DNA of 64,000 bases from Xylona heveae TC161 (taxonomy: Eukaryota; Ascomycota; Xylonomycetes; Xylonales; Xylonaceae): the NCBI RefSeq assembly GCF_001619985.1, contig NW_017264202.1, positions 1,050,646-1,114,645 of the forward strand. The letters run 5' to 3'. The notes under the pieces were generated by a model. The model searched no databases, was not told the DNA's origin, and was given only the letters and a program-made list of their open reading frames with translations. Below, piece after piece: positions 1 to 64,000 of the stretch. Every line of letters begins with the position of its first letter. Position 1 is the stretch's first letter. Both the position numbers and the translations under genes were made by a program.

Positions 1-1231
1 ACTGGACAGTGATCAGATCCCTGCGCCATTAGCCACATTCATGATCATCGCATCTTTCAGTTCACCTACCAAAAGCCCCTCTTGAATATTGGCATCAGAG
101 ATCCAGTCTTTGATGCCTATGCTACAGAGAACATAGTCAATCCTTGAGCCGTAGTTTGCAGGTCTAGCATTTATCTTTTGTTCCCAGCATGTGAACATTC
201 CTTTGCGCTCTGGGTGGAAGCCGCGACAGGTATCCCATAACATCGGCTGCTCTCTGCCTTCGTCTCGTTGGCCTAGAACTTTGCCTTCAAACAATAGCTG
301 ATTAAAAAGTCGCCTTGTAGGTGTCGAAATGTACTCCTCAGGAGTAAGACCGCTTTTTCTCATGGTTTCCACCGGATTCGCTGAATCCAGTTCGTCTCGA
401 GACACGTTGAGATCGCCCGCGACGATGACATGCTTGCCAGCTGAGACAAGATTTCTGACACGCGCATCAAGCGCATTTAAAAATCCTAGACGAAAGTCGT
501 CTCTATTACCTGCGCTATTGGCTGGGCTGTAAACCCCAATTAGAATAAAGGCAGGAAATTCCAGAACAACACAACGGCCTTCAGAATCTAAGGCGCTAGC
601 ATCGACCGGGCAAACAGAGAGCTGAGTAGCCGTCGGATAGCCACCGATTTTTTGATCTTCTGGAAGGTCACAGTAACAGGTCGATGAGTTTGGTGGGCAC
701 AGAACACCGATAATGCCCTCTTCCGCCTTGATTGGAGCACAAACGCTTTGCCTGGTATAGATAGCAACGCCGGAATATCCTGCTATAGTCTGAGCCACAA
801 ATTTAAAGACAGTTAAAAGGAAAAGGCGTACCTTTCTTATGTTTAGGAAGACTGAAGTAGCAGTCCCAGCCAGGTACAAGCACCATGTCATCTTTCAAAT
901 CTTTCCGTTGAATTTTCAGCTCTTGCATGATCACAATATCCGCTTGGAGGATATCGAACATAGCCTTAATACGTCAAATTAGAGAGTTAATATCAAGGAC
1001 ACCACTGGAAGAGGGTAGGCATACGGTGAAAGTTCTCTGGTCCCGCCATGGCTGATAACTGAATGGATTCCTGGATCAAAGGCAAATTAGAAGGACGCAA
1101 TTGTTTGAGAAAGGCGATGCGATTGAATTGGGCAACGCACCTGATTCCATTGACTATAATAAATTAGCTTCTGATCTATAAGTGAAGTTTGCATTCTGCG
1201 TACCATTCCAAGTCGTGATCCTGAGACTCAT
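1..1231 (-). CDS. APN2: AP endonuclease 2 (DNA lyase), 3' end off the window
   Basis: Class II apurinic/apyrimidinic endonuclease of the exonuclease III (EEP) family, which repairs abasic sites in the nucleus. Six exons can be read on the minus strand: 1204-1231, 1141-1153 (only 13 nt), 1025-1070, 832-964, 70-779 and <1-20. The protein starts MSLRITTWN-VNGIR, then has the QELK metal-ligand motif, GDLN in the catalytic core, and RIDYVL. An apparent stop at base 13 lies inside an intron; after splicing, the last exon reads GSDHCPV, the family's conserved C-terminal catalytic motif, so the gene continues to the left. The C-terminal PCNA-binding and zinc-finger part is outside the window. It is divergent from COX13, and this pair normally flanks the mating-type locus. 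Confidence 0.95.
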
Positions 1232-1648
1232 TGTATTGAGAGCGTTCTGTATCTCAAACTACATCGCACCTCATATATTTGCAAAATAATTGAAAAAGAA
1301 CCATGATAAAGAAGAAGCAAAATTAGTTCAAATATTGCAACTCCGATCGCTCTAAATGCGCTCAAACGTAAGTAGTCAACAATAATAATCTGAATAGCTC
1401 TGAGTGAAACTATTCGCTGACATCATCCCATGTACACAATAGAGACCTGCATCACGTGATATAGCCTGCTGAGTCATCCTTCGAATCTCAAAGGAAATCC
1501 CTCCAATCTCCACGCCGCCAAACCGAAGCAAATAAGCGAGATGGTACTCGCTCTCTCGTTCGTCTATACTGGCAAGTGAAAGGAGCTGCACCATCACTTC
1601 ACCTCATCTCCACCCATAACAGCTCTCATCCGTCAATCGTGGCACATC
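1232..1648. promoter_or_regulatory. Bidirectional promoter between APN2 and COX13
   Basis: A 417-bp divergent intergenic region with no credible ORF. A CCAAT box on the plus strand at 1503-1507, about 145 bp before the COX13 start codon, could bind the HAP/CBC complex that commonly drives respiratory genes. That role is inferred from motif and gene class only. Confidence 0.4.
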
Positions 1649-2377
1649 ATGTTTCCCCAACGCACTCTTCTCCGCGCTTCCCAGCGCGCCGGTCAGCAAT
1701 TGCGCGCCCCAGTCATGCGCTCGACCATTCAGCGCCGCTTTGAGTCGACCAGCTTCCGCGGCCCCCAGGACAATGCTTTCAATCGGGAAAGAGCGGCTGT
1801 GAAGCAACACGCCGCTCAATCGAGCGGTAAGCGTCCCAATTAGTTTCAATTGGCTTCTTAAGTCCGTTACATTACGAGAACAATAGCACTGATAGATTTT
1901 GCAGAGCTCTGGAGAAAGCTCTCAATCTAGTAAATTCATCCTTAACTCGTCGAAGATCTGGATCCAGATGGACTTACCAAAAACAGCGCCACCATTCCCT
2001 GCTTGATCATCGCAGGTGTCAATGCTTACAACCTGTGGAACGAGCACTGGGCGCACTGGGCGCACGAGCCCCCGCTTGAGGAGCGTACCGAGTACCCGTA
2101 TCAGAACATGAGAACCAAGAACTTCTTCTGGGGAGACGGTGATAAGGTTAGTACGCCCGTTCTTTTCGCTCAATTGCTTTAAGCTAACAAATATGATGAA
2201 TCAGACCCTGTTGTAAGTCAATTGATCCTCCCGAAACATCTTCTTACCTGAAGCGATGCCTGTTCACGTATCGAATTTTCGAACTTCCCATTGGACATAA
2301 TATAAATTGGGTTGCCTCTGCTAATACCTTTGACCAGCTGGAACGACAATGTCAACTACCACAAGCGGGACGAGTAG
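1649..2377 (+). CDS. COX13: Cytochrome c oxidase subunit VIa (Cox13)
   Basis: Nuclear-encoded single-span subunit of mitochondrial complex IV. Five exons join in frame: 1649-1826, 1905-1929, 1987-2146, 2205-2212 (8 nt) and 2338-2377, giving 136 residues. An Arg-rich, acid-free presequence (MFPQRTLLRASQRAG) is followed by NAFNRERAAVKQHAA, ELWRKLSIY, a hydrophobic helix ending AYNLWNEHW, and the conserved tail RTEYPYQN, KNFFWGDGDKTLFWND. The length fits the family. The 25-nt and 8-nt exons are easy to miss in automatic annotation. It lies between APN2 and APC5, the conserved mating-type-flank order. Confidence 0.95.
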
Positions 2378-2894
2378 ATACAGTACTGCTGCAGCAATTG
2401 AGGGTTATTTCGTATAGTGCGAGTGCGGGGTGTAATTTCAGATACAAATAGTGTATATGAGAAAGCAATTTTGTTGATTACCTCGTGGAAGTATAGCAAA
2501 TGTGAATACGATTGTCATGCAAACTCTAGGAGAGGTGCGGAAACAACTTTTGAAGATGAGAATAATCGGTGACTATGTCAAGCATGATCGCGGATTTTCT
2601 ACATCCGATAAAACACATCGCACTAAATTAAAATTTCCCTGATGTGGAATTATTGCTTAACATATGAAAAAGGAGGAATCTAGACGTTAAGAAGGTGCTG
2701 GTTTTTAACGAGCGCTTCCCAAAGTACCGCGTCTGAAATATACGACCGGCCATGAATCAAGTCTACATTCTGCTCTTGACCATTGGAACTTTGTTGCTTG
2801 CGGCATGCGCTTAACGTCAAAATTTCAGGCTGCTGATTGGTTTCCTAATGTGCTCTCCAGCTCAGTCAACCAACGAATTCTAGGCCAGAAATGG
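2378..2894. other. COX13/APC5 convergent intergenic region
   Basis: 517 bp between two converging genes, presumably holding both 3' untranslated regions. Moderately AT-rich; no ORF, RNA gene or repeat was recognised. Confidence 0.6.
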
Positions 2895-5626
2895 CTACCG
2901 TCCAAGTTCTGGCTGCTTTTTTATAAGCTCCATATATCTGGCAGCAGTCTCTTCAGCCGAATCTGAGGCACCCAAGAGATGCATAACGGTTGCCTTTTTG
3001 GCCACCATTTCGCATTGACCGTTAAGATCCTCTATCTTCGAGTATTCTAAGAAAGTATCCCATGGTCAGTGCGCAGAATAAACAGAAATGGGGGGTGTTC
3101 TCACCATGAATGGAAGCATCAATCAAACTTAGGGAGGTATCCAGGAGAGATTGTTGTGACAAAGAATGCTTTTCTGTTTCTCCTGCAAGACCAATATATG
3201 AATCCACCAGAGATGAGTAGAGTTGCGCGGATAACGCGCAATCCTCCCATTCGAGCACCTGACAAAAGCAATTTTTAGTTTCCTATTTCTCAAAGAGGAG
3301 AGGGAAAAGCTTTGCTAGGTTTACCTGAGGCATAATTCCATCAAGGAGATTTGCAGTTGCTTGGTATTCCCGTAAGTTTATGAGCACCAGAGCTAAAGCA
3401 TAGACAGCTTCCCAAAGTCCGGGAAGGATGCGAGCTTGATGAGCAATGCATACTGCTCTCAAGGCAACAGAAAAGCATTTTTGCGGGACACCACATTTAG
3501 CAAAAATAATAGCCTTCAAACTCATCAACCGGACTCGCCAGTAGATATCGGCTCCCGTATCAGTGAGCTTATCGAACAAGTCCTCTAGAATGTGCAATGC
3601 CCTGCTGTAAGAATGACGCCGTATCAGAAGGTCTAGCCTGAGAAGAGATATCGAAAACGAAACGTCCGGTTCCGGACAGGGTGCCGCGGCTAGTTGATTA
3701 AGTAAATGATCCGCCGAATCTAAGTCATTCCTGCACATTTCAGCATAAACATCGCTTATAATAAGCAAGATCAGACTATTACCGGTGTAACTGGCGCTTG
3801 GTCCGAAGAAGGCCCGAAATGGTCGTCCAGTATTGATAGGGTTTCAAGGTATTAAAAGAGTGCCTTTTAACAGCTTCTAATTGGTTTTCTGCTTCATCAT
3901 ATCGCCCACTCTGAGCGGACTTGAACGGGAGGTCAGCCTCTAGTGTTCCAAAGTCTAGACGGGACAGAGCTTACTGCGAGGGCTCTTCGACATATACACT
4001 TCAGAACCTCTTCGTGAGAGATATTACTTGCATAACAATGAAGCATAATATCACACTGAGACAACGACAAGCTCGTTATACCTGAGTTCTAACTTTAGTA
4101 GCGAATTAAAATGAAAATCGCATCCGAATTTTACGTACCGAGTCTTCCATAAATCGAGGACTGCAATAGCATCTGTGAACCAATGGTACTGGTAAGATTC
4201 TTCGTTACATTCAAATGAGAAGCTTTAATGACATTCTCTAAAGCCGAAGGTAGGCTTTCACCCTAATTGTGGATTAGCCAAGTGCACAAGAGGGACTTGA
4301 AAGAACACACGGAACGAACATTGTTCAGTAACAGCTTGGTCTCACTGAGAAGGGTCGTGCTTAATAGACTGAACATTCCCGCCTCTTTTGCTTTAGCCTT
4401 GAGGTAGGCTAGGCCTTCCCTTGCGACTCCGAGACCGCTGCCCTTTCCAATAGCGCTTAATTCATCTGGATGCGCCTTGCTAAAGTGATATAACCAGCTC
4501 AGGCTGAAGTTCAAACATCCAACATCTTTATTCTCTCTAGCTGTGGCGATTGTCTCCTCCATGGCCGCGACAGCTTCACTGTAGCATCCAAAATCTGCCT
4601 GAAGAATCGCCAGATTCAACAATGCGTATTGATAAAATGTTCGGTCTCGGTTTTGCATCGTATAATCAAAGTATCTATGCAGGTGATCAAATGAGGACGG
4701 ATAGTCACCAGATCTCCACGAGTCAAGGAACCTGAAAAACTTAGTCCAAGATCGTGATAATTTGACGATATCCTTACTTTACATAATGAGAAAGGCTTGT
4801 GACCATCACGCCATTCTTGAGCGCGTCTGAAAGGTGCTGTTTAACTTCCTCGGGGAGTCGAGTTCCTAGGCCTGTGCTGACCATCAGTGAACTTATCAGG
4901 AGCAAGTATAATGATCGCGGTCGATTTACTCTGCATTTCCTCCACTTGGAATTCTAGAAGCTTTTCAATATCATCTGCACTAACGCACCCTTCAATCATA
5001 CCCTGCTCAGTCAAACAATTTTCAGAGACATTTGCATCAAAACTCAGACGCTGAAGGTCATGCTTTGGGTCTGATTGATTAATTCTTAGGTTTCTGTCGT
5101 TCCATTCTCTCAATGCAGGCAGGCGATAAGATATGAGTGCTTTCCATAGCATTACCGTGTCATGGAATTGAAGCCGAGTGAACTCTATACGCGCGCGTCG
5201 AACAAAGGCCCCCAGGGGGGAAGTACGAGAGAGCAAAATGGCACCATCAGGAATCTCAATGCCTTGTTCATCGTCCGCTACTTGCTCTTCTTTTGATTTG
5301 AGTAGCAGCAATCCCAGGTTGTCAAAAAATTCGTGGAGTGCGTCCAACGAATCTATTCCCCATAATTTATCCAGGAAGAGATCCCAAAGCAATCGTCCAG
5401 CAATCGTTGAGGGATGATTCGCTATCACTTTTTGAAAGCTTTGTATCGTAATAGTAGTACTGGACAATTCTGCCTTGTGCTGATCATTATTCGCTATATC
5501 GGATACGATATGAGTGATCAAAAAGGACAGAATTGGTACGCTTGATGCTGTTGGAACGGAGGCTTCAGCATAGAGAGAGACCAACGCCAGAAGCCCCAAT
5601 TTTGGAGCAGTCAAGTAGCGCGCCAT
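2895..5626 (-). CDS. APC5: Anaphase-promoting complex subunit 5 (Apc5)
   Basis: TPR-containing scaffold subunit of the APC/C ubiquitin ligase, acting in the nucleus to drive mitotic exit. The start MARYLTAPKLGLLALVSLY is the typical Apc5 N terminus. The middle is a series of helical hairpins with TPR-like features (for example YQYALLNLAILQADFGCYSEA near 4600). The last exon ends LGASDSAEETAARYMELIKK and stops at 2895. At least five introns interrupt the gene, and I did not place every junction; the product is roughly 750 residues. Identification rests on the N terminus, the TPR pattern and the position next to COX13, which is the standard arrangement beside MAT. Confidence 0.88.
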
Positions 5627-58048: not shown

Positions 58049-60334
58049 ATGGCACATTTACAGCAAACACGTTCCTCTTCGCCGTCCACTTTGTCCTGCA
58101 TCACGGTTAGGGATGAAAGTGGCGATGTCTCATCTACGAATTACTCAACTCCTCCCACAAGTAATCCAGACGCGTTAAGTACCCCTGCCGAGAATGACGT
58201 GTCCGATATTCTGTTACAAATCAAAGGTCGCCCATTACGAGCCCGACGAAGCCTGAACAGCTACAATGAAAGCATTCTTGCCGGGACGGCCAAGAAGAGT
58301 GTTTCGGGAAGAACGACCAACATTAGCTGTGCTACGGACAAGGTATTGACCGGAGATCAGGTTGACCTAAATACTATAGCTGGACCCAAAGTTCTGGACT
58401 CAATACGGCGTATAACAGATGACTCTCCCAAAGAAGTCCACATCGTCTCTATAGAGAAGGTCATTGAAGATCCGCTTCTTGCTGCTCCTCATAGAAGGAG
58501 ATCTACGCGCTTGAGCCTTGCTGCGCGTGCTACAGAAAGGGTCGTAGCTGCGAAAGACGGCGTCGACGAAGAAGAGGGCATGCACCGCGTTTTGGGCAAG
58601 CGGAAACGCAAGGCAATGTTTGGCAACACAAGGTCTAGTACCCGGTCGAAAGCAGAGGTTAGGTGCAGTAGGCAGGGCAATAAAACAGTGGTGCCCACAG
58701 ACAAGAGGAGACGCGTTTCATCAAGCTCATCATCTGCAGAAATTATGAAAGATGAAACAACAACATCCATTTCGGAATACCAGAGAGTAAAGCGCTGGCT
58801 GGCCTGCGGATTGTATGTCGGTCAGGATTCTAACACGAGTCCCCGGGCGGCTTCGGCGAGACGACGAAGCAAGTACTCCTTGCCTTCTGCGCCAAATCAG
58901 CGGAAATTCTTGCCGTTGCCAATGTTTACGGGCAAGCGAGTCGTTGAAAACGGCCGGGATTTTAGACTGCCATTCGATGTGTTCTCGCCTTTACCTCCAG
59001 GTCAGCCAAAGCCAGAGGAGTGGCGTAGGACACGGAAGAGTACGTACACAGAATTCGCCTTCAATTTGTATTGATCAAATCTAACGACAGACACAGATGT
59101 TTTCATTGGTGAGGCGGCAAATATTTGGAAAAAACATAAGGTTCAGGAACTCTCTCGCTGCATTTGTACTCCAGAGACAGGTTGTGGGGAAAATTGCCAA
59201 AACAGATTCATGTTCTACGAATGTGACGAGACGAATTGTAATATTGGTGCTGAGTACTGCACTAATAGAAACTTTCAAGCGTTGAAACAAAGATGCAAAT
59301 CTGGCGGGAAATACCATATTGGTGTGGAGGTAATTAAAACTGCTGATCGTGGTTATGGCGTGAGGAGCAACCGCACCTTTGAACCTAATCAGATCATTGT
59401 CGAGTATGCAGGTGAGATCATAACTCAAGATGAGTGCGAAAAGAGAATGAAGAATGAGTACAAGAACAACGAGGTAAATCTTCCATTCGAAACGGAACTT
59501 GCTGAAGGTTGACAATGTCAGTGTTATTACCTCATGCTCTTTGACCAGAACATGATCATCGACGCTTCCCGCGGCTCCATTGCACGCTTTGTGAACCATT
59601 CATGTCAGCCTAATTGCTCTATGGTTAAATGGACAGTGGCCGGCAAACCCAGGATGGCACTTTTTGCTGGGGAAAGAGGAGTTATGACGGGAGAAGAATT
59701 GACCTATGATTACAACTTTGAGTGAGTTTCGTGACTCCAATCGGTAGCGATCTCGATCCTTGCAAGTTCTAACTATTGTAGTCCCTTCTCGGTCAAAAAT
59801 GTCCAACAATGCCGGTGCGGAGCATCCAACTGTCGCGGAGTCCTGGGCCCGAGGTCTAAAGAGCAATTTAAGCCAAACAAAGAGAAAGGCACCCAGAGGT
59901 CATGCGCCTCTAGTATGAAGCGGAAGTTCGTTGAGACGTCCCTATCATGCGTCAAGGGTCAGCCAAGCAAGGCCAGGCGTGCAAAGGGGACTTCTCTTGC
60001 CTGCGCTGAAGGTGCTGGGCTTCGAAAATCTGCGGTTCGACCCCGCAACGAGGCCTGCAAAAATACTGTAGCCTCGCTACATAAAAAGACCACTGCGAGG
60101 GATAATTCGTCGATATCTTCGGCATTTCGAGCCAGAATGACACGACCAGATTCAAACACGAGGGTATTAGGTGGTGGACAGAAGAAATACAAGCTCGCCT
60201 CTCACCGTGCTCCGAGAACGGCTTCGAAGGCTCCAAATGCAAGCAGAGAACCCCAAGCCCATACTAGGATGGGCTCTGTGTCTAAAAGGGGCTCTAGAAA
60301 TTCTGTGGCGCAACGGCGAATCGGCCTCAGATAA
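58049..60334 (+). CDS. SET-domain histone methyltransferase, ASH1-like (H3K36)
   Basis: Histone lysine methyltransferase with AWS, SET and post-SET domains, most like the ASH1 group that methylates H3K36 in filamentous fungi. The N-terminal 330 residues are basic and disordered (RRRSTRLSLAARATERV, LGKRKRKAMFG). The AWS domain reads RCICTPETGCGENCQNR. SET: DRGYGVRSN, IIVEYAGEIITQDECEKR, CYYLMLFDQNMIIDASRG, RFVNHSCQPNCSM (catalytic NHSC), GEELTYDYNF; post-SET: CRCGASNCRGVLG. The tail is a Lys/Arg-rich region of about 160 residues. At least four introns; about 700 residues. The ATG at 58049 is used; the frame is open upstream only from a TTG. It is the last gene before the AT-rich repeat region. 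Confidence 0.85.
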
Positions 60335-60977
60335 TGTAAAAGATGTTTTGCGTGCGGGACTGGATGCTGAAAAAAACATTTATCATACATCAAAATTGTG
60401 AATTTTTTTCAAATTCCATATATTTGAATGGATTAATTTATTGTTTATCTGATACCTTGTTGTAGATATTTGTTATGCTTTTTATATCTGTTTTAATATA
60501 TAAAGTGTATCAAGAATTCAATTATATTTTATTTGCCTTATAATTATATATATTTATTGTATTTTTATATAATTTATATTATTGTAATTTATTTTGTTTT
60601 ATTTTATATTTTTTATCGTATTATAAATTAATAAATAAAATAAATTATAATAATATAGTTAAAAAATATTCTATAAATATTTTTTTTATATATATATTTT
60701 ATATATTAAACAGGTTAAACAAGTAATTTTTAAATATTAAATAACAAAATAAATTTACTCTAACTATTATATTTCTTTACTATATAACTAAATATTAATA
60801 ATATATATGCTTAGTGTATATAGTATACTAAACTAGCTAGATTTAAAAAGAATTTTAGGCAGGTATATAGATTATATCAATAGATTATATTAAAAATTAA
60901 GCTTTTTTATCTCTTTATATTTATATTATTACTAGTATAGTAATTGATAACAATATTACAAATAATGTTTGTTATAA
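60335..60977. other. AT-rich non-coding region
   Basis: Very AT-rich, short of CpG and CpA and full of TpA. No ORF. Probably RIP-decayed repeat DNA of unknown type between the ASH1-like gene and the tandem repeat. Confidence 0.6.
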
Positions 60978-61490
60978 TAACTAGCTCTAGACTAAACTAA
61001 CTATCTATAGTATTGCTCTAAACTTTTTAAGTATCTAGTATATTATATACATGATAGCTATAAAATAGTTTAGTAGCTATATATTATATATATATTATAA
61101 AATAAAATATTTTATTAAAGAACAAGTATTTTATTTTATTATATAGAGCCTAGTTATTACTTTTACTCTACTTTATATTAACTTGCTACTAATCTATATA
61201 TCTTAAGTATTACTATATAGTTACAAGTATTATAGTAGCTAGGTCTAGACTAGCTTAGCTAATAATAGTATTACTTTAGACCTTTATAAGCATCTAGCAT
61301 ATTAAATACATGACAGCTACAGGATAGTCTAGTAGCTATATACTATATATATATCATGAGGTAGAATATTCTGTCAAAAAAAAGCATTCTACTTTTTTAT
61401 ATAGAGCCTAGCTATTACTCTTACTCTACTTTATTCTAGCTTGTAACTATCTTATATATTTTAGATATTACTATACAGTTACAAGGCAAA
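60978..61490. repeat. Tandem pair of diverged 258-bp direct repeats
   Basis: Copy 1 (about 60978-61234) and copy 2 (about 61236-61490) align over most of their length with an offset of 258 bases, for example TCTAGACT at 60986 and 61244, and TTACAAG at 61221 and 61479. Differences are mainly T or A in copy 1 where copy 2 has C or G, including several CA to TA changes (GACAGC/GATAGC; GCATCTAGCATA/GTATCTAGTATA), the RIP signature. They may be LTR pieces or a degenerate satellite. Confidence 0.8.
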
Positions 61491-61599
61491 GCCTTTACAT
61501 AGTAGAATATTTTTTTAATTTATTTTTTTAAAAGAAAATTACTTAATTATCTAGTAATATCTATTATATAGCAATAAACAAGTAAATTACAATAGTAGT

Positions 61600-63545
61600 A
61601 TACATTTATCAAATGTCAATGCAACTAAAATCATTCAATACAATAAATTTCAATGACTTAGTACAGGTCTTAGTTATATCTAAAACATCATTAAATAGCA
61701 TAGTAATAGATGTACAATATATAATTAATAGCTTAAAAGAATTTAAATGCCTTAAAGAAGAAATTACTATATAATATTACTAACTAAAGATAAAACAACT
61801 TCAAAAGTAACTTATATTAGATGATGATAAATTTAAAAAATTAAACAACCTAAATACTAAACAAGCTACTAGCATACTTCAAGTAGCAATTATATTTAGT
61901 ACTTGTCTACTACATAATTATTTAGTAAAATTTTTAAAATATTTAAGAAAAAAATATAGCTAAACTTAATAAATATCTTAATGCATGGACCTGTCTATAA
62001 AATATTTAAGGAAACAAGAATTTAAGTAGTAAATATATACTTGTAGTAGCTACATACCTTGTTAAAAAGCTACTCCAATCCTGAATGAAAGAAGATTGCT
62101 TCAAAATTAAGATGTAGAAAAAATATACAAATTGGTTAAAAAATACCTTGAAGGATCTTGACAACTACAAGTATAATACAAGCTTAAAGCTTAAAAATCT
62201 CAAGTGCAAGCTAGAACAATTAACTCAAGAATTTATAAACTATATAGCTTCTCTCTGTCAAGATCTACCTCTATTAGTATATGATAACAAGAAAAGTTTT
62301 AGCCTGCTCAACACATTAGGTCCAGACCTTAAAAAACTTGTTTGTTAAAATATTAATAAAATTACAAGTAAAAAATAAGTAATTATAGTAGTAACAAGAC
62401 TTGAAGATGACATCCTCTAACAGGAACAAAAAACATTCAAGACTAAGCAAACAATTAGACTTATACATGAAAAATGAATGTAATACAAAAGATGATTTAC
62501 ATATTATCTACATAAAATAACAAAAAGTAAAGACAGCTCTGAACAGCAAAAAAGCATACTAGAGCTACATGCTAAATACTCATTAGTCAAATGCTATAAC
62601 TACTAGAAAAAAAAATATAAAGCTATCAAATACAGAAAACTTTAAGAAAGTAATAAAGCTAAAAAAGACAAGTTAAAAAATATAAAAATCTACTAATAAT
62701 AGTCTCTATAATATTGAATTATAAGATTATAGGAGCAAAACAATCAAAATGTTTTACCCTATATTTAATACTACATTTACTAACTAGTAACTATACTCTA
62801 TATATATTAATTAATTCAGGAGTAGAAAGCAATTTTATTTTTCAAAAAATAATAAAAAAACAAGAACTTAAAATCTAAGATATAAAATTCTATACAATAA
62901 CAATTGATAGTTACAATGTATTAATATATAGTAAAATAACATGCATTATACACATAAAAAATTTAAGTAATAGCTATAGAGACATTACTTAAACTTACCT
63001 TACTACTAACATAAAAAAATATAATATTATTCTAGAAATGCTATAACTAAAAACTATAAATCTTGATATTAGATAGTCCAAAGCATGCTAGTTCTACAAA
63101 AATAAAAAAATTCAAGTTATTTTATTAGATAAAATAAATAAATTCATAAAAACTACTATAGTATACATTGTATACATATTTCTAATATGTAGCAAACTAA
63201 TGAATAGACAGTAAAATATACTCTAACAATATATAGTATAACTATTATCTATAGCAAGCAAAGCTGTATTCTCAAAAAAATTCTAGGAATACAAAGATAT
63301 ATTCTCTAAAAAAAAGGTAAAGATACTACCTAACCATGCCTATACAATACATGCTATTGATATTATATTAAAAAGCAAAGTACCATTTAGACTCTTGTAT
63401 AAACTATTAGAAAAAAAGTTAAAAGTCTTAAGACAATATCTTAATAAATATTTTGCTAGAAGATGGATCTAACTATTAATATCATTAGTAGAAGCACTAG
63501 TACTATTTGTACTCAAGCTAAATAGTAGTATGCATTTCTGTATTG
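61600..63545 (+). mobile_element. RIP-degraded Ty3/gypsy LTR retrotransposon remnant
   Basis: Very AT-rich DNA retaining three domains in the right order on the plus strand. Gag-like: TQEFINYIASLCQDLP near 62220-62345. Protease-like: LINSGVESNFI near 62803-62835, where the catalytic Asp of DSG reads Asn. RT-start-like: EYKDIFSKKKVKILPNH, then HAIDI, KKLKVLRQYLNKYFARRWI and FCID near 63290-63545. Stop codons break every frame. The match ends abruptly near 63545 in a GATTGATTGATTG run, so the rest of RT, RNase H and integrase is missing. Not functional. Confidence 0.8.
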
Positions 63546-63760
63546 ATTGATTGATTGTTTATTCTGCATGCAGCCCTAAAGCTATAGCAGAGTCTATAGT
63601 TTAAATATATAAAATATGTGTTGAGCTTTTGAAAGTTACCCTAGAATCAGTCAAGCTGATACTGGATGTTATCCATCAACATAAAACAAAAAAAATTAGA
63701 AAAATAATAAAGATAGACAAAGTAAGAGTTATAAAAGTAATAAAAGAGAGTCAAAGTTTG
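63546..63760. other. Non-RIP spacer between two element remnants
   Basis: Less AT-biased than its left neighbour and not alignable to a known domain. It starts after a GATTGATTGATTG run and ends at a long T tract. Confidence 0.4.
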
Positions 63761-63761
63761 G

Positions 63762-64000
63762 TTTTTTTTTTTTTTTTGTTTTTTGTTTTTTGATTTTGGA
63801 AATCTCAAGAAGTATTTTTATTTTAAAGCCTACCCCAGTCCCATAATGTTTCTTGTTGATGTTGTCCTTTTTGATGTAGTAACCATGTTCTTGATACTAT
63901 TTTAATAGTATCTAGATATTCTAGTAAGTGGTTCCAGTTTTTTCCAGTATATAATATTTTCAAAGTAAGAACTTTTTCCTTTACTTTTTGTAGTAAAACT
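63762..64000 (-). mobile_element. 3' end of a second element with A-rich tail, minus strand
   Basis: On the minus strand an open frame of 58 codons enters from the right edge and stops at 63823 (…HQKGQHQQETLWDWGRL). About 45 bases later is an A-rich tail, A16 plus two A6 blocks, seen as T16-G-T6-G-T6 at 63762-63791. This order (ORF end, short 3' region, A-rich tail) is that of a non-LTR (LINE) retrotransposon or a processed copy. The protein family is not recognised. Confidence 0.5.

Follow-up and report, generated by a model that had tools for sequence, protein, structure and literature searches.

Which mating-type (MAT) locus borders the stretch of Xylona heveae TC161 DNA studied here, and which genes does it hold? 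The stretch (the window hereafter) comprises 64,000 nucleotides, positions 1,050,646 to 1,114,645 of contig NW_017264202.1, denoted C10 below, in a 24.28-Mb genome of 17 contigs. An earlier examination of its first 5626 bases had recognized APN2 (−), COX13 (+) and APC5 (−) in the order and orientation that flank MAT in Pezizomycotina, and had placed a MAT gene and SLA2 within a few kb to the left of base 1, with 20 kb as the limit beyond which the idea would fail. Extending the sequence leftwards by 60 kb, as this original prediction proposed, brought out both an HMG-box gene, MAT1-2-1, and SLA2, the two lying within about 8 kb of base 1, and between them a candidate homeodomain gene. With a probability that we put at about 80%, the window borders a MAT1 locus of the MAT1-2 form in which a divergent homeodomain gene stands head-to-head with MAT1-2-1. 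The MAT locus of TC161 is in itself an ordinary, standard MAT1-2 arrangement, and what is new in it is the homeodomain gene; its match to the homeodomain family is observed, and what we say below of how it is spliced and expressed, binds DNA and functions is inferred.

The MAT1-2 locus left of the window

The gene order from left to right is SLA2 (pointing right), the homeodomain gene (pointing left), MAT1-2-1 (right), APN2 (left), COX13 (right) and APC5 (left). The stop codon of SLA2 ends at C10:1042718, 7.9 kb from base 1 of the window; MAT1-2-1 ends 3.1 kb from base 1 and is convergent with APN2 at a distance of 2.0 kb, and the stop codons of SLA2 and APN2 are 6.8 kb apart in TC161. As in MAT1-2 loci of Pezizomycotina, the core gene encodes a MATA-type HMG box and lies between SLA2 and APN2. 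The spliced MAT1-2-1 model is complete, with 423 amino acids, and its HMG box matches PF00505 with an expectation value (E) of 5.3e-19. In the genome, the HMG-box match (C10:1046615-1046878, + strand) is split by an intron located within the Ser codon after NNDI, which is the usual place of an intron in this box. The spliced protein is 100% identical to L228DRAFT_285192, which is annotated as a ‘hypothetical protein’ in Xylona heveae TC161 (Xylonomycetes), and the next three relatives belong to Pycnora, Piccolia and Candelina, with 32–44% identity over the aligned part. Among the 210 MAT1-2-1-like proteins found, some are named MAT1-2-1 or mating-type HMG-box protein, and when 11 of these proteins were aligned, the HMG core proved strongly conserved and was intact in X. 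heveae.

A second copy of MAT1-2-1 was sought among seven other HMG loci of the genome (L007–L010 and L012–L014), and none of these seven qualified. The HMG box closest to that of MAT1-2-1 in this set belongs to L007 (C11:313380-316544), with 46% identity over 52 residues, and L007 is perhaps a developmental regulator of the MATA_HMG type. Five further open frames between SLA2 and APN2, picked from many and including one that overlaps APN2 at its 3′ end, gave no Pfam match at E ≤ 10.

A candidate homeodomain gene beside MAT1-2-1

The second gene was modeled between SLA2 and MAT1-2-1, 2.1 kb from the former and head-to-head with the latter, with a gap of 523 bp between the two models. A two-exon version (191 amino acids) gave a sub-threshold homeodomain match in Pfam (E = 0.02, 15.2 bits) that ended right after the conserved Trp; its six matches in PDB at E ≤ 10 were without exception homeodomains of the DUX4 type, and NCBIfam returned no match for it. 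The introns of the three-exon model measure 51 and 59 nt, and the second of them has GTAAGA as its consensus donor, CTGAT as a branch-like element and CTCTAG as its acceptor. Its splicing brings WFQRKR into frame, the recognition helix of the resulting 223-residue model being ITGIEMWFQRKR. In this form the protein scores 26.7 bits with PF00046 (E = 4.9e-6), above the curated cut-off of 22.9 by which Pfam assigns the family, and its best PDB match reaches E = 1.9e-6. At E ≤ 1 the PDB returned 17 matches, every one a homeodomain, although 2da2 and 1ocp are not so labelled by their printed names. When the residues were shuffled nine times, no shuffle reached a homeodomain at E ≤ 1, and one hit a different family at E = 0.13. 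A genome-wide scan with PF00046 yielded 11 matches, seven of them above the cut-off, and picked up the MAT-linked exon alone, unprompted, at E = 0.3; in two of the seven an intron likewise seems to interrupt the sequence next to helix 3, the recognition helix. The gene beside MAT1-2-1 probably encodes a homeodomain protein, and we call it divergent and non-canonical because WFQRKR holds W48, F49 and R53 but Arg at position 51.

Several points weigh against this interpretation. Position 51 is occupied by Arg and not by the near-invariant Asn, so that the pattern W48-F49-x-N51-x-R53, in the standard homeodomain numbering, is incomplete. The codon score of the three-exon model is ambiguous, 0.012 (0.023, 0.010 and −0.028 for the individual exons), against 0.02–0.17 for 15 training open reading frames that were scored on their own model and hence flattered; the same value is attained by 17 of 157 shadow open reading frames (10.8%) and by 3.7% of 2000 windows of intergenic sequence. 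The Markov score of the two-exon model is likewise undecided (0.020), the 95th percentile of shadow frames being 0.066 and the reference, 16 open reading frames left out in turn with MAT1-2-1 among the training frames, ranging from −0.03 to 0.15. A search of 5.8 billion database proteins, which requires shared five-residue words and similar length, yielded no relative at E ≤ 10 with either of two queries, the two-exon model (57 candidates) and residues 100–223 of the three-exon model (17 candidates). Because the database searched holds the annotated MAT1-2-1 of X. heveae, the lack of a match also suggests that the homeodomain gene has no entry in it as a protein of comparable length. Moreover, the second intron was picked once the weak homeodomain match was known, one donor and two acceptors conforming to the consensus. 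Finally, the analysis covers one strain, TC161.

Such observations could also be read as an ordinary MAT1-2 idiomorph in which MAT1-2-1 is the sole real gene and the homeodomain-like frame arose by chance or has decayed, yielding no protein. The missing Asn51, a codon signal midway between coding and non-coding and the failure to find either a homologue or an annotated protein would all agree with this, but a single consensus intron positions W-F-Q-x-K-R exactly while raising the Pfam score past the curated cut-off, and two libraries, Pfam and PDB, concur where nine of nine shuffles were negative. In addition, auxiliary MAT1-2 genes are common in related classes, according to papers including PMC8454179 and PMC6414310 (these and the other articles identified by PMC number are cited from the portions of their text available to us). 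We consider a non-coding frame unlikely.

A true gene might still owe nothing to mating, being an ordinary developmental gene that was captured by the MAT region or stands there by chance. The seven other above-cut-off homeodomain matches of the genome fit such an origin, and so does the closest solved match, which is DUX4 and not yeast MATa1. The MAT-linked homeodomain is nevertheless not a recent copy of any of the seven, with which it shares about one third identity at most (for instance 14/41) in a comparison where one of them was partial and two, C1:1276152 and C7:679872, were spliced together over an intron that we inferred, the first of these joins losing one residue; an earlier motif-based extraction had recovered four of nine loci, one with its intron read through. 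The gene also occupies what seems to be the MAT1-2-4 slot of Aspergillus, and we regard a purely developmental role as decidedly unlikely.

By analogy with its family, MAT1-2-1 would confer MAT1-2 identity through its control of pheromone and receptor genes, switching on the MAT1-2 programme, and the homeodomain protein could be a further regulator specific to MAT1-2, expressed together with MAT1-2-1 from their shared upstream region. The latter protein might act after fertilization, perhaps as a dimer partner and possibly together with a MAT1-1 partner. The Arg at position 51 may alter the contact with DNA, or else the protein may serve mainly as a partner for other proteins.

Mating system and flanking genes of TC161

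The original prediction left the idiomorph type, or homothallism, to be read left of base 1. The idiomorph could indeed be read there as MAT1-2, from its HMG-box gene, whereas homothallism is unsupported because an alpha-box gene was not found, in searches run without a positive control. The alpha-box profile PF04769 gave no candidate in the whole genome at E ≤ 0.001 or at E ≤ 10, a blank that by itself cannot show the absence of an alpha box, because 14 control genomes gave none either. An alpha-box probe, confirmed as PF04769 (E = 1.7e-37), matched nothing genome-wide, again with no positive control. When the 123,645-bp stretch was searched by tblastn with this probe at E ≤ 10, the matches were weak and scattered (best E = 0.24), and none fell between SLA2 and APN2.

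The pheromone receptors STE2 (E = 2.8e-85) and STE3 (E = 1.2e-57) are both present. The STE3 matches span three stop codons in all, and their frames look like two exons and an intron rather than damage, though this is no proof of intactness. A SPO11-type TP6A_N match (E = 9.4e-12) covers 37 of 62 profile positions. These three matches are consistent with heterothallism, and in the simplest reading TC161 would represent one mating type, MAT1-2, of a heterothallic species. That the strain is instead homothallic, or secondarily so, with a MAT1-1-1 gene unlinked or diverged past the reach of the searches, appears very improbable to us. Split or diverged exons can escape six-frame searches, and the PF04769 search was silent in the control genomes as well, yet the same tool recovered individual exons of the HMG and I/LWEQ families in this genome, the confirmed probe remained without a match both in the genome and between SLA2 and APN2, and a single MAT1 core gene is carried by all 39 Lecanoromycete genomes surveyed in PMC6414310.

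On the window side of the locus, Pfam matches for APN2, COX13 and APC5 were obtained on the strands assigned to them in the original prediction (Table 1), and the same trio, as apnB-coxM-apcE, adjoins MAT in Aspergillus niger (PMC8454179), which bears out the MAT-flanking arrangement. Chance is of no concern for these identities, because strong domain matches occur within a known synteny block. APN2 crosses the left edge of the window as had been proposed, its seven-exon model extending 1,132 bp beyond base 1 to contig position 1049514. The model comprises 672 amino acids, and the annotated X. heveae APN2, which was also placed in a tree, is quoted with 653 in PMC6164635, so the two models differ somewhere. 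The internal exons of COX13 were modeled only in part. The start codon of APC5 occupies window positions 5624–5626 (−) and its 3′ end, read by eye, is approximate; the ANAPC5 match comes from the frame at 4263–4778, the N-terminal APC5 frame alone giving no Pfam match. At the opposite end of the window (60000–64000), which is the contig end, the GC content falls to 21–28%, against 45–50% in the preceding 10 kb. The contig breaks in this AT-rich block, 67 kb from MAT1-2-1, and no telomere repeat array was found at its very end.

Table 1. Positions of the genes and domains discussed, on contigs of the TC161 assembly (C) or within the window
Feature	Position	Strand	Basis
SLA2 I/LWEQ domain	C10:1042175-1042712	+	Profile match, E = 8.2e-51
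Candidate homeodomain gene	C10 exons 1045638-1045271, 1045219-1045044, 1044984-1044857	−	Model of 3 exons, 223 amino acids
MAT1-2-1	C10 exons 1046162-1046346, 1046395-1046705, 1046766-1047541	+	HMG box, spliced 3-exon model
APN2 (DNA lyase), 5′ part	window 1..1231	−	Pfam PF03372 Exo_endo_phos, E = 2.2e-12, and spliced model
COX13 (cytochrome c oxidase subunit VIa)	window 1649..2377, start to stop codon	+	Pfam PF02046 COX6A, E = 1.3e-27
APC5 (anaphase-promoting complex subunit 5)	window 2900..5626	−	Pfam PF12862 ANAPC5, E = 1.2e-39
Other homeodomain gene, apparent intron beside recognition helix	C1:1276052-1276283		
Other homeodomain gene, apparent intron beside recognition helix	C7:679872-680012		

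Comparison with other mating-type loci

A gene of the MATa1 type is not known from the MAT loci of Pezizomycotina. A gapless alignment of the X. heveae homeodomain with MATa1 shows 15 of 46 positions identical. The MATa locus of yeast pairs the homeodomain protein MATa1 with the HMG protein MATa2 (PMC5499181), and the X. heveae idiomorph likewise joins a homeodomain gene to an HMG gene. The X. heveae domain is, however, closer to DUX4 than to yeast MATa1 and is devoid of Asn51, and on these two grounds we rejected its membership of the MATa1 group. That the locus harbors a true homeodomain gene paired with the HMG gene, one of the MATa1 kind and either retained or regained in Pezizomycotina, is rather doubtful.

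Among filamentous fungi, a close parallel comes from the MAT1-2 loci found in heterothallic Eurotiomycetes and Lecanoromycetes, such as that of A. niger CBS 554.65, with a single MAT1-2-1 gene, APN2, COX13 and APC5 on one side and SLA2 on the other (PMC8454179). Its auxiliary gene MAT1-2-4 lies, to judge from the gene numbers in that paper, on the SLA2 side, as does the homeodomain gene of X. heveae. The two loci differ in that slaB of A. niger is more than 12 kb from MAT (PMC8454179) whereas SLA2 of X. heveae is close to the auxiliary gene, and in that the auxiliary gene of X. heveae scores as a homeodomain. For Aspergillus section Fumigati, PMC3697472 calls the origins of MAT1-2-4 obscure and, in its available portion, makes no mention of a homeodomain. 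No similarity to MAT1-2-4 was found for the X. heveae protein in the protein database search at E ≤ 10, which returned no homologue and involved no profile comparison with MAT1-2-4.

Auxiliary MAT1-2 genes also occur in Lecanoromycetes, MAT1-2-14 of Letharia among them, and in some lichen species the auxiliary gene bears a homeodomain leucine-zipper domain, pfam11569 (PMC6414310; PMC10512270). We compared these lichen genes with that of X. heveae by their descriptions only, and PF11569 was not matched by the three-exon model. The lichen gene lies between MAT1-2 and APN2 (PMC6414310), whereas that of X. heveae is on the SLA2 side and so does not share the position of MAT1-2-14; the Letharia authors report that they found none of the homologues of MAT1-2-14 they looked for beyond Lecanoromycetes (PMC10512270). 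In the literature searched, homeodomain-bearing MAT1-2 auxiliary genes are reported for some lichens only, and a homeodomain gene at the MAT locus of a filamentous fungus is rarely reported. For X. heveae itself we found PMC6164635 (APN2 length and tree) and PMC7882544 (repeat-induced point mutation), and the genome paper (Gazis et al. 2016) may already contain an account of the locus.

These data provide a description of a MAT locus in the class Xylonomycetes and enable a mating-type test by polymerase chain reaction in populations of X. heveae. We know of no sexual stage in this endophyte of the rubber tree. If the homeodomain gene is real, it would tie the auxiliary MAT1-2 genes of filamentous ascomycetes, so far unexplained, to the mating-type homeodomain genes of yeast and basidiomycetes, and whether Pezizomycotina ever lost the homeodomain control layer would become directly testable. 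Should the doubtful MATa1-like reading hold, the obscure auxiliary genes MAT1-2-4 and MAT1-2-14 of Eurotiomycetes and Lecanoromycetes may be decayed homeodomain genes, and homeodomain control of the a1/alpha2 type over the diploid or dikaryotic stage may have been ancestral in the Ascomycota as a whole.

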